Below are positions 6,146 through 50,974 of a stretch of DNA of 64,000 bases, in pieces (the first letter of the stretch is position 1; each line of letters starts with the position of its first letter). The stretch is from Burkholderiales bacterium (GTDB lineage Bacteria > Pseudomonadota > Gammaproteobacteria > Burkholderiales > JAEUOS01), in the NCBI GenBank assembly GCA_947473125.1, contig CANJDH010000005.1:1-64000 (forward strand), written 5' to 3'. Under the pieces are notes generated by a model. The model saw nothing but the letters and a program-made list of their open reading frames with translations. It did no database searches and was not told the origin of the DNA. The position numbers were made by a program, and so were the translations under genes.

Positions 6146-7122
6146 AACCTTCCGGCTACTCCGCTGCATGGTGGTTGCCGGGAGGACATGCGCAAACCAT
6201 CCTTCCTGCGCTGGCGGGCCGGCGCGCGTCGCTGGCTTATACGCGTGAGCGCTGGCCCAGCGTTGATGCCGCAGGAAGGCCGGATGGCGACTTCATCGAT
6301 GTTGATTTTTTGCCGTGGATTGACGGCGCGCCACTGGTGGTGCTGTTCCACGGCCTTGAGGGCAGCTCGCAAAGCCACTATGCAACCGCGATGATGCGCG
6401 CGCTGGCGGAGCGCGGCTGGAACGGCTGCGTGCCGCATTTTCGCGGCTGCTCGGGCGAGCTCAACCTGCTGCCGCGCGCCTACCACTCGGGCGACTCGGC
6501 CGAGATCGACTGGATCATTTATCGCCTGATCGAAACCAAAAAGCCGCCGCGCCTGTATGCGGCCGGGGTCTCGCTGGGCGGCAATGCCCTGGCGAAGTGG
6601 GCAGGCGAGCAGGGTGATGCGGCGAAACCTTTGGTGGGAGCCATTGCCAGCGTGTCGTCGCCGCTCGACCTGGCCGCCGCAGGGGTTGCATTGGGGCAGG
6701 GATTCAACATGGTCTACACGCGCATGTTCCTCGACACGCTCAAAAAGAAGAGCGCGGTGAAGCTGCGTCAGCATCCTGGCCTGTTCGACGGCAGTGCGGT
6801 ACTGGGTGCACGCGACCTGTACGAATTCGACAACCTGGTCACCGCGCCGCTGCACGGCTTTCGCGATACCGACGACTACTACGCGCGCGCCTCGGCCAAG
6901 CCCTGGCTGCGCCACATTGCCGTGCCGGCGCTGATCCTCAATGCGCGCAACGACCCGTTCATGCCGGCCGGTGCGCTACCCAACATACACGACGTGTCGC
7001 CCAGCGTTACGCTTGAACAACCGCAGCATGGCGGCCATGTCGGATTTGCACGCGGAATCCTGCCCCCGGGTAACATCGACTGGCTGCCCCACCGATTGCT
7101 GGCTTTCTTTTCGCAACACTGA
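6142..7122 (+). CDS. YheT-like alpha/beta hydrolase
   Basis: This is an alpha/beta hydrolase of the YheT/AB-hydrolase-4 family, whose physiological substrate is mostly unknown. The start is TTG at 6142: it overlaps the previous stop as TTGA and gives the family-typical beginning YSAAWWLPGGHAQTILPAL. The nucleophile elbow is GVSLGGNALAKW (Ser about residue 144), the oxyanion region is VLFHGLEGSSQS, and the likely catalytic His is in QPQHGGHVGF near the C-terminus. Length is 326 residues against about 330-340 for the family. Residues about 161-169 (KPLVGAIA) are encoded by a copy of the dispersed TTGGTGGGAG repeat. The upstream GC-rich frame that extends this ORF is non-coding. Confidence 0.88.
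   Translation: MKPSGYSAAWWLPGGHAQTILPALAGRRASLAYTRERWPSVDAAGRPDGDFIDVDFLPWIDGAPLVVLFHGLEGSSQSHYATAMMRALAERGWNGCVPHFRGCSGELNLLPRAYHSGDSAEIDWIIYRLIETKKPPRLYAAGVSLGGNALAKWAGEQGDAAKPLVGAIASVSSPLDLAAAGVALGQGFNMVYTRMFLDTLKKKSAVKLRQHPGLFDGSAVLGARDLYEFDNLVTAPLHGFRDTDDYYARASAKPWLRHIAVPALILNARNDPFMPAGALPNIHDVSPSVTLEQPQHGGHVGFARGILPPGNIDWLPHRLLAFFSQH
6622..6647 (+). repeat. Dispersed TTGGTGGGAG repeat, copy inside the yheT-like gene
   Basis: The sequence GAAACCTTTGGTGGGAGC matches the repeat consensus, but the right arm (CCATTGCC) has lost its complement to the left arm. It is read in the frame that encodes KPLVGA. It could be a decayed insertion or coincidence with the hydrolase sequence. Confidence 0.45.
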
Positions 7123-48048: not shown

Positions 48049-48528
48049 ATGCCTGCCGAACAACGCCTCCAAGAACTGGGTCTGGTCCTGCCGGCGCCGC
48101 TGCAATTACCGCCCGGCGTGCGCCTGCCGTTTGTGCCGGTGCGCATCGTGGGCAGGCGTGTCGCCGTCTCGGGCCACGGCCCGCTGGATGTACACGGCAA
48201 TTTGGCCGGGCCGTTCGGCAAGGTCGGCGCCGACGTAACGCCCGAGCAGGCGCATGAGGCGGCCCGTCTGACGCTGCTGGCGATCCTGGCCGATCTGAAA
48301 GTGGCACTCGGCAGCCTCGACCGCATCAGCGCGTGGTGCAAGCTGCTGGGCATGGTGAACGCCGCGCCGGGGTTCAGCGCCATGCCGCAGGTAATCAATG
48401 GCGCGTCCGATTTGATACTCGATATTTTCGGCCCCGACATCGGCGCCCATGCGCGCTCGGCAATCGGCGTGGCGGAACTGCCCTGGAACATCCCGGTGGA
48501 GATTGAAGCGGAAGTGGAAATTAACTGA
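48049..48528 (+). CDS. RidA/YjgF-family protein (first of two)
   Basis: This 159-residue RidA-like trimer-forming protein has GRRVAVSGHGPLDVHGNLAG, TPEQAHEAARLTLLAILADL and the C-terminal IGVAELPWNIPVEIEAEVEI. RidA removes reactive enamines and imines; in other members the trimer has different roles. It lacks the exact R/N pattern of canonical RidA as far as can be seen (ARSAIGVAELPWNIPV), so enzymatic role is uncertain. It is divergent from the tautomerase gene and is followed by the repeat-bracketed island. Confidence 0.86.
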   Translation: MPAEQRLQELGLVLPAPLQLPPGVRLPFVPVRIVGRRVAVSGHGPLDVHGNLAGPFGKVGADVTPEQAHEAARLTLLAILADLKVALGSLDRISAWCKLLGMVNAAPGFSAMPQVINGASDLILDIFGPDIGAHARSAIGVAELPWNIPVEIEAEVEIN

Positions 48529-48556: not shown

Positions 48557-48585
48557 CCTGAAAGCGTTGGTGAGAGACGTTCTTC
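48557..48585 (+). repeat. Dispersed TTGGTGGGAG repeat at the left edge of the toxin-antitoxin island
   Basis: CCTGAAAGCGTTGGTGAGAG followed by ACGTTCTTC is a diverged copy. It shares the GAGACG-TCTT right half with the copy at 49737, which marks the other edge of the island. Confidence 0.65.
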
Positions 48586-48712
48586 ATGGCACAGGCTCTG
48601 TGACCCTGATCCACCAAGGCTCTCCAGCCTGCGCCTCAGCCCAAATCGCCGACAGCAACTCCGCCTGCGCCAACACCGTCTTGGTCGCTTCCTCCTGCAA
48701 ATCCGGCGGGTA
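48584..48712 (-). pseudogene. C-terminal remnant of a type I restriction enzyme R subunit
   Basis: The minus-strand frame reads YPPDLQEEATKTVLAQAELL and then SAIWAEAQAGEPWWIRV to a stop at 48584. This resembles the last about 45 residues of HsdR proteins (usually YPPDKQE-x-A-x-x-TVL-x-QAE). Upstream the frame enters the 40-bp direct repeat and then has no family sequence, so only the tail survives. It indicates that a restriction-modification locus once lay here. The match is from memory of the family; identity is moderate. Confidence 0.55.
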
Positions 48713-48750
48713 GTCTACTGGGGATGGCGGCGTTATGGCAGGGCCATAAA
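48711..48750 (+). repeat. 40-bp direct repeat, left copy
   Basis: TAGTCTACTGGGGATGGCGG starts a 40-base sequence that recurs exactly 900 bases downstream at 49611, with 36 of 40 positions equal, same orientation. The two copies flank the mntA-hepT pair. The left copy joins the HsdR remnant. Confidence 0.88.
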
Positions 48751-48776
48751 GAGAAGGTTGAAAGCCCAGTGCGACG

Positions 48777-49100
48777 TCATGCCTGCACGACCACATACGC
48801 CCGCTCAATTTCGCGATGGAACGTAGCCGGGATGCGCGCCCAATCCACCACATCGACGCGAATCGGCAGATCGCTTTCCACCAGGGCATCGCGTAGGTCT
48901 TCGAGGTGACTCGTTTCCTGTTTGAGGTCTGCCGGTTGACGCACGACCAGATCGAGGTCGCTGGCTTCGTGGCCATCGCCGTTGACACGGCTGCCGTAAG
49001 CCCACACTACGGCTTGAGGCAAGTGCTGCTGCAGCACCTGCCGAAGCAACGCGAGGTGCTTTGGCTTCAAGTCCAGCCGGTGTGTGGTGATGGAGGACAT
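48777..49100 (-). CDS. mntA: MntA-type nucleotidyltransferase antitoxin
   Basis: This 107-residue minimal nucleotidyltransferase shows the motif GS-x10-DxD (GSRVNGDGHEASDLDLVV, Gly-Ser to Asp-Leu-Asp), as in MntA antitoxins that add AMP residues to a Tyr of HepT. The third acidic residue is probably in RVDVVDWARI. The ATG shares one base with the hepT stop (TGATG), so the pair is translationally coupled. The pair sits alone on the minus strand between two direct repeats. Confidence 0.9.
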   Translation of the reverse strand: MSSITTHRLDLKPKHLALLRQVLQQHLPQAVVWAYGSRVNGDGHEASDLDLVVRQPADLKQETSHLEDLRDALVESDLPIRVDVVDWARIPATFHREIERAYVVVQA

Positions 49101-49531
49101 CAGTTGTTCGCCTCGCTGAAACGTTCGCGCAGGATCGCTTCAAGATGCGCCACGTCGGTGATGAAGTCGGGGATAAGTACGAGGGTTTGCTTGGCGAAAA
49201 CTTCGCCGTAGTCGTGCGCGGTGTTGTTGCGGTTGTCGCGATAGGTGAACCAGCGCTCGACTTCTTCGAGCGTCATCAGGCCATGGGTGGCGGATAGGCG
49301 CAGCAGTTCTTTTACTGGCGTGGCGTCGAGTTTTTTGGCGCTGTGGCCGTAATCGCGCAGGGCTTTCTTCAACAGTTTGAAGCTGGTTTCCTGGGTGAGT
49401 TCATAACCTTTGACGATGGCGTTACGGTAGATTTCCTGGTCGATGCTTTCCGGCGCGGCTTGCTCGAAGAAAGTGAGCGACGAGCGCAGGGTCTGGATGC
49501 AACGCTTGAGGTGATCTGTGTTGAGTGTCAT
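49100..49531 (-). CDS. hepT: HepT-type toxin (HEPN nucleotidyltransferase-binding protein)
   Basis: This 143-residue HEPN-domain protein has the RNase motif R-x4-H-x-Y as RNNTAHDY (within DNRNNTAHDYGEVFAK), and the helix IYRNAIVKGYELTQETSFKL. In the HepT/MntA system the toxin cleaves RNA and is silenced when MntA AMPylates the Tyr of this motif. The Tyr is present here. It precedes mntA. The start at 49531 follows the 40-bp repeat and a short leader. Confidence 0.9.
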   Translation of the reverse strand: MTLNTDHLKRCIQTLRSSLTFFEQAAPESIDQEIYRNAIVKGYELTQETSFKLLKKALRDYGHSAKKLDATPVKELLRLSATHGLMTLEEVERWFTYRDNRNNTAHDYGEVFAKQTLVLIPDFITDVAHLEAILRERFSEANN

Positions 49532-49610
49532 GGGCGAAGAGCTCCGGCGTCGCTGTGTTTCCTGGCGGCTTTGGTGGCCATGATGCGTGTCTCTTGTTTT
49601 TTGGACTGTC

Positions 49611-49650
49611 TAGTCTACTGGGGATGGCGGAGTTTGGGCAGCGCCATAAA
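49611..49650 (+). repeat. 40-bp direct repeat, right copy
   Basis: TAGTCTACTGGGGATGGCGG followed by AGTTTGGGCAGCGCCATAAA matches the copy at 48711, with four changes in the second half. It lies 80 bases upstream of the hepT start codon on the plus-strand side. Confidence 0.88.
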
Positions 49651-49736
49651 GCATAATCGGATGTCGATTTAACCGCATAGATATCTTCTGCAGTCCCATG
49701 GCAAGTTCCCGAACCCATTTCCCATCACAGCGCCGT

Positions 49737-49767
49737 CCTGAAACCTTTGGTGGGAGACGATCTTGAG
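49737..49767 (+). repeat. Dispersed TTGGTGGGAG repeat overlapping the MFS gene start
   Basis: CCTGAAACCTTTGGTGGGAG followed by ACGATCTTGAG is a near-consensus copy. Its GGGAG lies 7 bases before the TTG start of the MFS gene (49763) and so could serve as the ribosome-binding site. Confidence 0.75.
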
Positions 49768-50974
49768 CCGCACCCACTGGAAAGCGGCGGTGGCAGCGCT
49801 TCTCCTCGGCGTGATGGCAGCAATTTTCATCGGCAAGCTGCCGCCGGCGATCCCCGCGTTGCGCGCCGAATTCAACCTGAGCCTGGCCCAATCGGGCTGG
49901 ATGGTGTCGATGTTCAATACCCTCGGTGTGGTCGCCTCGATCTTCATGGGGCTGTTCACGGCGCGTGCCGGCGCCTGGCATTTGTGCGTGGCCGGCGCCA
50001 CGGCGATGCTGCTCGGCGCCCTGGCCGGCGCCCTGGCACCAAGCTCGGCGCTGCTGCTGGCAAGCCGCTTTCTCGAAGGCGTCGGCTTCCTGTGCATCGT
50101 GGTGGCCACCCCGGCCCTGCTGATGCGTGCCACCGCCGACGCCGACCGCAAGCGCGTATTCAGTTTCTGGGGCGCCTACATGCCTACCGGTACCACGCTG
50201 GGCATGCTGCTTGCGCCGCTGCTGATCGCGGCGCACGGCTGGCGCGCGTTGTGGCTCGCCACCGGGCTGTGCGCCCTGGCCGCGATCATCATGCTGGTAT
50301 TGCGCCGCGACGATTACGCGGCACCGCCGGGCGCGGTGCAGGCGCTGCCGACCTGGCGTGCCAGCGCCGGGCCGCTCAAACGCGCCGGGCCATGGTGGAT
50401 CGCGCTGGCCTTTGCTTGCTATGCCTTCAACTACTACGCGATCATGGTATGGCTCCCCACCTTCATGGTCGGCGAGCGCCAGACGCCGCTGCTGATCGCC
50501 TCGCTGCTCACGGCGCTGGTGGTGGCGGTCAACATCCCCGGCAACCTGCTTGGCGGCATGTTGATGCACCGCGGGTTTTCGCGCGGCAGCAACGTCTGCA
50601 TCGCCGGCATCGCCACCGCGCTGACCTGCCTAATGATTTTCTCGCCCGCGCTGCCGGACTGGCTGCGCTACCTGGGCTGCGTGGCGTTTTCATTTTCGGT
50701 CGGCGTGTTGCCCGGCTCGGTCATGTCGGCCGCGCAAACCCACGCGGCCAACCCGGCGCAGGTAGGCACGATCCAGGGCATGATCAACCAGGGCTCGAAC
50801 CTGGGCCAGTTCATCAGCCCGCTGCTGGTCACCAGCATCGTCGGCGTCGGACTGGCGTGGAACAACATGCTCGCCCTGCTGCTCGGCACCAGTGCAATCA
50901 TCATCGTTGCGGGGCTGGTGCTGCGCCGCATCGAGCAGCGTATTGACGCGGAAAGACCTGCCGTCAGCCGTTGA
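49763..50974 (+). CDS. MFS transporter (CynX/NimT-like)
   Basis: This 403-residue inner-membrane protein of the major facilitator superfamily has 12 predicted helices. The N-terminal half carries LPPAIPALRAEFNLSLAQSG and ASIFMGLFTARAGAW. The last helix ends in RRIEQRIDAER. The group includes cyanate and nitroimidazole-type transporters; the substrate is unknown. The start is TTG at 49763, preceded by GGGAG from a dispersed repeat; a later in-frame Met is inside helix 1. It is convergent with the uncharacterised gene at 50964 by an 11-base overlap. Confidence 0.86.
   Translation: MSRTHWKAAVAALLLGVMAAIFIGKLPPAIPALRAEFNLSLAQSGWMVSMFNTLGVVASIFMGLFTARAGAWHLCVAGATAMLLGALAGALAPSSALLLASRFLEGVGFLCIVVATPALLMRATADADRKRVFSFWGAYMPTGTTLGMLLAPLLIAAHGWRALWLATGLCALAAIIMLVLRRDDYAAPPGAVQALPTWRASAGPLKRAGPWWIALAFACYAFNYYAIMVWLPTFMVGERQTPLLIASLLTALVVAVNIPGNLLGGMLMHRGFSRGSNVCIAGIATALTCLMIFSPALPDWLRYLGCVAFSFSVGVLPGSVMSAAQTHAANPAQVGTIQGMINQGSNLGQFISPLLVTSIVGVGLAWNNMLALLLGTSAIIIVAGLVLRRIEQRIDAERPAVSR

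Follow-up and report, generated by a model that had tools for sequence, protein, structure and literature searches.

The block lying between a ridA-like gene and an MFS transporter gene in the window (the whole 64,000-nucleotide stretch of DNA that was analysed) is best explained as the remains of a type I restriction-modification (R-M) operon with the order leader-hsdM-hepT-mntA-hsdS-hsdR, which would have settled between the two flanking genes and then decayed; the probability of this reading is put at about 0.86. In its present state, the hsd locus is a remnant that no longer amounts to a working R-M system. A type I R-M operon contains hsdM, hsdS and hsdR, and here only two stubs are left and no hsdS, although the remnants of both operon ends occur in the correct order and orientation. 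The features of the block and its flanks are the following:

48049-48528, plus strand: ridA-like gene (YjgF/RidA family), left flank; Pfam PF14588/PF01042
48555-48590, plus strand: left (downstream) copy of the TTGGTGGGAG palindrome; similarity to the intact C9 cassette stops at its outer edge
48632-48713, minus strand: hsdR 3' remnant of about 27 codons, YPPDLQEEATKTVLAQAELLSAIWAEA; DNA identity to C9 hsdR 88%, weak match to Pfam T1RH-like_C
48711-48751, minus strand: leader copy 2 (41-bp repeat), fused to hsdR at a common CTA, the putative deletion join
48777-49100, minus strand: mntA, minimal nucleotidyltransferase antitoxin, 107 aa, GSRVNGDGHEASDLDL; Pfam NTP_transf_2 (PF01909), 38 bits
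49100-49531, minus strand: hepT, HEPN toxin, 143 aa; Pfam NTase_sub_bind (PF08780), 68.8 bits
49528-49581, minus strand: hsdM 5' remnant, start at 49581; codons 1-11 match C9 hsdM
49611-49651, minus strand: leader copy 1 (41-bp repeat), 5' of the hsdM start, from the C9 alignment
49735-49769, plus strand: right (upstream) palindrome copy, extending into the MFS start codon
49763-50974, plus strand: MFS transporter gene, right flank; Pfam MFS_1

Read along the minus strand, the block runs from a palindrome through leader copy 1, hsdM codons 1-11, hepT, mntA, leader copy 2 and approximately the last 27 codons of hsdR to a second palindrome, with a spacer of 85 bp between the upstream palindrome and leader copy 1. 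The remnants are recognised by comparison with an intact type I R-M operon on another contig of the same genome (contig C9; L032 1896-13839, G000:C9), which encodes full-length HsdM, HsdS and HsdR in the order hsdM-hsdS-DUF262-RhuM-like-ATP-binding gene-hsdR, the cargo names being taken from PADLOC matches and from reading of the sequence. Window positions 49627-49549 (minus strand) align with the region just upstream of C9 hsdM and its first 11 codons (85% over 79 bp), and positions 48713-48556 (minus strand) align, at 88% over 158 bp, with the final codons of C9 hsdR, the sequence beyond them and the palindrome. The HsdR-like tail that the earlier note had seen between the left-hand repeats is thus a real hsdR 3' end. 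The hsdM start of 11 codons following the right-hand repeat was absent from that note, so both ends of the operon are left. From the hsdM start, an ORF of 17 codons (MATKAARKHSDAGALRP; 49528-49581, minus strand) can be read, in which the join falls after codon 11 and the TGA overlaps the hepT start as ATGA. At the other end, the hsdR remnant has CAG at 48629-48631 where the C9 copy has its TAG stop, and its match to T1RH-like_C reaches only 20.7 bits, a weak score below the cut-off. An XRE/ImmA-like gene and Fic-type genes were also observed near the C9 operon.

The inner direct repeats (48711-48751 and 49611-49651) are identical at 37 of 41 positions, or 36 of 40 in the shorter form reported earlier, and are offset by exactly 900 bp, with the mntA-hepT pair between them as had been claimed; Pfam confirms both genes. 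Judging from its matches, the 41-bp repeat is the 5' leader of a type I hsd operon, because C9 matches the block at both ends and because the core CCATCCCCAGTAGACTA is confined to three hsd leaders. With up to one mismatch, this core occurred at three sites in its own genome, namely the two window copies and the position before the intact C9 hsdM, and had no match among a further 299 genomes from this order; nor did a 20-bp exact leader pattern match anything in a genome-contig database. Near-matches to the core on C155 and C91 of the same genome were rejected, as they sit in unrelated coding sequence. The two leader copies show 4 mismatches over 41 sites (approximately 10%), which argues that the duplication was not recent; their divergence says nothing more. 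The genome is a draft of 209 contigs, which could raise the suspicion that the repeats reflect chance or an assembly artefact, but the probability of this is practically negligible: the best ungapped self-match in a 4.5-kb region scored 29, at offset 900, whereas 60 dinucleotide shuffles reached no more than 16, the operon order is coherent, the flanks are conserved, and the hsd remnants diverge from C9 by 12-15% and hence are not misassembled copies.

The pair enclosed by the leaders is probably an HEPN-MNT module of the HI0073/HI0074 type that works as a type VII toxin-antitoxin system, to judge by its motifs and profile matches. HepT carries the motif RNNTAHDY, corresponding to RX4HXY at residues 101-108 (R101/H106/Y108), which is conserved in its relatives, and the adjacent minimal nucleotidyltransferase MntA retains a GS-X-DLD motif (GSRVNGDGHEASDLDL) conforming to the GS-X-DxD pattern. 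Among solved structures in the PDB, MntA matched HI0073 (E 8e-20), and the relatives of HepT were HI0074, TTHA0636 and a Legionella HEPN toxin. The NCBIfam scores fell below the cut-offs for both proteins (MntA_antitoxin, an equivalog model, 38.8 bits against 60; HI0074, a subfamily model, 46.8 bits against 55.8), and the pair is therefore regarded as HI0073/HI0074-like at the level of the subfamily, not as an equivalog. In Legionella, the MNT protein adenylylates a tyrosine of the HEPN protein and thereby blocks its RNase activity (PMC11586414); in the type VII mode, HepT would likewise be an RNase toxin silenced through adenylylation of its HXY tyrosine by MntA. Both genes look intact and constrained, and no relaxation is visible for HepT (omega about 0.1), for which dN/dS to its relatives was 0.06-0.11 compared to 0.07-0.24 among the relatives, values of which most may reflect divergence predating the decay of the operon. 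MntA also matched positions 2-97 of the 485-residue PADLOC model PDLC03138, named 'Type I specificity subunit' (E 5.8e-14), a similarity which suggests that MntA-HsdS fusions exist.

The origin of the pair can be approached through the surroundings of its relatives. A genome-wide search returned 80 HepT relatives, 15 of which had an hsdM within 6 kb, and 14 of these hsdM-near loci fell among the 40 relatives with at least 60% HepT identity. Their usual order, on one strand, is hsdM-hepT-mntA-hsdS-hsdR, often with 20-50 bp between hsdM and the start of hepT, and the closest relatives of all (80-87% identity) lie mostly within intact operons of this kind. The top relative, from a Gallionella MAG (L084, 87% identity), is hsd-embedded, as are L086, L087 and L089; in L087, where hepT-mntA lies between hsdM and hsdS, HsdM and HsdR are both 87% identical to those of C9. 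On the HepT tree, the window protein belongs to a supported clade of eight rows (99/95) in which five of the seven other members are hsd-embedded. The hsd-linked state is clustered on this tree, yet about nine changes of state are required, and gains and losses must therefore be frequent. These placements indicate that hepT-mntA was most likely the resident cargo of the lost operon and not a replacement for it: since the pair is native to hsd operons, it would have been left behind and not inserted in place of the R-M genes. A plasmid DNA similarity search gave no match, and HepT was absent from four other genomes of the family. A Magnetococcales locus (L105 3316-6684) was observed to have an hsdM with a hepT-mntA pair on either side, the two pairs differing from each other. 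When solitary HepT relatives were searched for adjoining hsdM 3' remnants, none scored above shuffles. The single suggestive case was L091 (solitary hepT, 3159), where the sequence just before hepT is similar to the final ~10 HsdM residues of L084 at a nearly equal offset, as might be left by a further decayed hsd operon; in view of the score, no such claim is made for it.

The earlier note had interpreted the block as a discrete mobile or recombined cassette, ending in the 40-bp repeats, that brought in hepT-mntA and displaced most of a restriction locus. Part of this stands, in that the R-M locus has mostly been removed and only the toxin-antitoxin pair is intact, but the repeats are the operon's own leader and hepT-mntA is normal hsd cargo. 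A cassette bounded by the 41-bp repeats is accordingly very improbable, even though perfectly spaced direct repeats do bracket the pair and Campbell-type homologous recombination at the leader would leave such repeats. The repeat is found nowhere else than at hsd leaders, the native place of hepT-mntA is between hsdM and hsdS, hsdM codons come after the right repeat and hsdR codons after the left one, and no transposase or integrase is present among the ORFs listed around the block. The two checks proposed for the cassette, an empty site holding a single 40-bp repeat and further pairs of the repeat with other cargo, also turned out negative. In G004, which belongs to the same family and another genus, the ridA and MFS genes are adjacent, approximately 55 bp apart compared to ~1.2 kb in the window, next to the same AMP-ligase neighbour, and the gap contains no hsd, leader or palindrome sequence; this empty site thus has neither of the repeats, and within the window's own genome the core was seen with no cargo other than hsd operons.

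A different route is suggested by the outer repeats. As described earlier, these share a variant right half, the rare GAGACG, with cores CCTGAAAGCGTTGGTGAGAGACG at 48557 and CCTGAAACCTTTGGTGGGAGACG at 49737, and TTGGTGGGAGACG occurs a single time in the genome. The palindrome itself is a dispersed repeat: CCTGAAANNNTTGGTGGGAG with at most two mismatches gave 178 copies in the genome, about one per 27 kb, compared to none for a reversed-pattern control, and copies within the window include those at 6631, 22039, 32985, 49737, 55226 and 63749. With up to one mismatch, none was found in 30 related genomes. A consensus from 30 copies is palindromic (GGCCTGAAACCC-TTGGTGGGAGC-GGGTCTCAGGCC, ~35 bp) and folds as a hairpin (z -2.5). 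Palindromic, dispersed and present in high copy number, it resembles the REP palindromes of REP/RAYT systems, from which it differs in that no associated transposase gene was found and no copy occurred in the 30 related genomes. The sole Y1/REP-type tyrosine transposase gene of the genome (L082 1159-1866; G000:C22) scored 64 bits against a REP-transposase cut-off of 80, and its ~3.3 kb locus contained no copy of the palindrome, so that it is not flanked by the repeat as a RAYT gene would be. The right-hand copy overlaps the MFS start codon (49747-49763), and its GGGAG could be the MFS ribosome-binding site.

With 178 copies dispersed in the genome, the presence of this palindrome alone does not define a cassette. 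Nevertheless, the relic and the C9 operon are both flanked on both sides by copies in direct orientation, the similarity between window and C9 extends to the palindrome's outer edge and no further, and the site is empty in G004, all of which would fit a history in which the whole block was moved between palindromes by recombination or transposition and the hsd genes decayed later. Such a history is considered unlikely. Intergenic copies of the repeat are common here, common descent accounts for the trailing copy and leaves just the two leading copies as independent cases, the copies bounding the block on either side are not identical, no fresh target duplication was seen, and the only Y1 transposase is the sub-threshold, repeat-free gene on C22. 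The flanking palindromes and the similarity edge are hence suggestive of repeat-assisted movement, but weakly so, given the high frequency of the repeat and the common ancestry of one of the pairs. The broader proposal that a genus-specific palindrome mobilises R-M cassettes between directly oriented copies, with the embedded toxin-antitoxin pair remaining after decay, is quite improbable.

Decay of an hsd operon would require two deletions, one taking out the remainder of hsdM and a second extending from hsdS over most of hsdR. The latter would have brought hsdR next to a leader copy, with a CTA of 3 bp at the join: leader copy 2 finishes with ...AGTAGACTA and is followed by CCCGCCGGAT, corresponding to the hsdR codons YPPD..., and the CTA at the join is common to both parents (C9 hsdR GGCTACCC, leader GACTAGAC), as expected if the junction is a deletion scar with CTA microhomology. 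Two points speak against this model in its simplest form. The C9 operon, like that of G002, carries no hepT-mntA and so is not the immediate parent, and a simple deletion does not yield a second leader, for which an additional duplication or templated-copy step is needed. The extra leader may be a templated copy made during the hsdS-hsdR deletion, or may derive from a second leader-hsdM unit once located downstream of hepT-mntA. The latter would imply an ancestral tandem of leader-hsdM-hepT-mntA followed by leader-hsdM-hsdS-hsdR, a question within the decay model to which slightly less than an even chance is given. The tandem is favoured by L092, where hepT-mntA lies upstream of hsdM, by the pairs on both sides of hsdM in L105 and by the 4 of 41 leader differences, but it takes one duplication and two deletions, where a templated copy requires fewer events. 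No sigma-70 promoter match was found in the leader or elsewhere in the block, so hepT can only be presumed to be expressed now from the hsd leader, with translation of the hsdM leader peptide coupled to it via the ATGA overlap. The pair may have persisted because loss of the antitoxin first would be harmful, while loss of the R-M genes is tolerated.

The locus adds a new, well-documented example of known components, and does not represent a novel type of mobile element. It shares with HepT/MntA type VII systems of the HI0074/HI0073 subfamily the hepT-mntA order, the RX4HXY and GS-X-DLD motifs and sequence matches, and departs from them in its NCBIfam scores below the cut-offs and its place under an hsd leader. 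Compared to the R-M operons that bear hepT-mntA (L084, L086, L087, L089, L103, L110, L111 and L119), it has the same cargo, strand and hsd family, whereas its hsdM, hsdS and hsdR have been lost or survive as stubs, and mntA is followed by a second copy of the leader. Linkage of HEPN genes to R-M operons is established, the model being PrrC-PrrI (PMC3710099, PMC3506569), a type Ic R-M locus that likewise has an HEPN RNase gene within the hsdMSR operon. PrrC is kept inactive by the Hsd complex, whereas HepT is paired with a dedicated antitoxin and can therefore survive the loss of the R-M genes. MNT-HEPN modules are known to be gained and lost among closely related lineages (PMC2701414), and the literature on HepT-MntA or HEPN-MNT with R-M systems and on toxin-antitoxin pairs in hsd operons yielded no paper on a hepT-mntA pair surviving a decayed hsd operon. 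The block shows concretely how an embedded toxin-antitoxin pair can outlive its restriction operon, as the addiction view predicts, and decay of such operons would be one route to solitary HepT-MntA loci. Repeats nested around a toxin-antitoxin pair are not necessarily the ends of a transposon; they can also be left by the decay of an operon.
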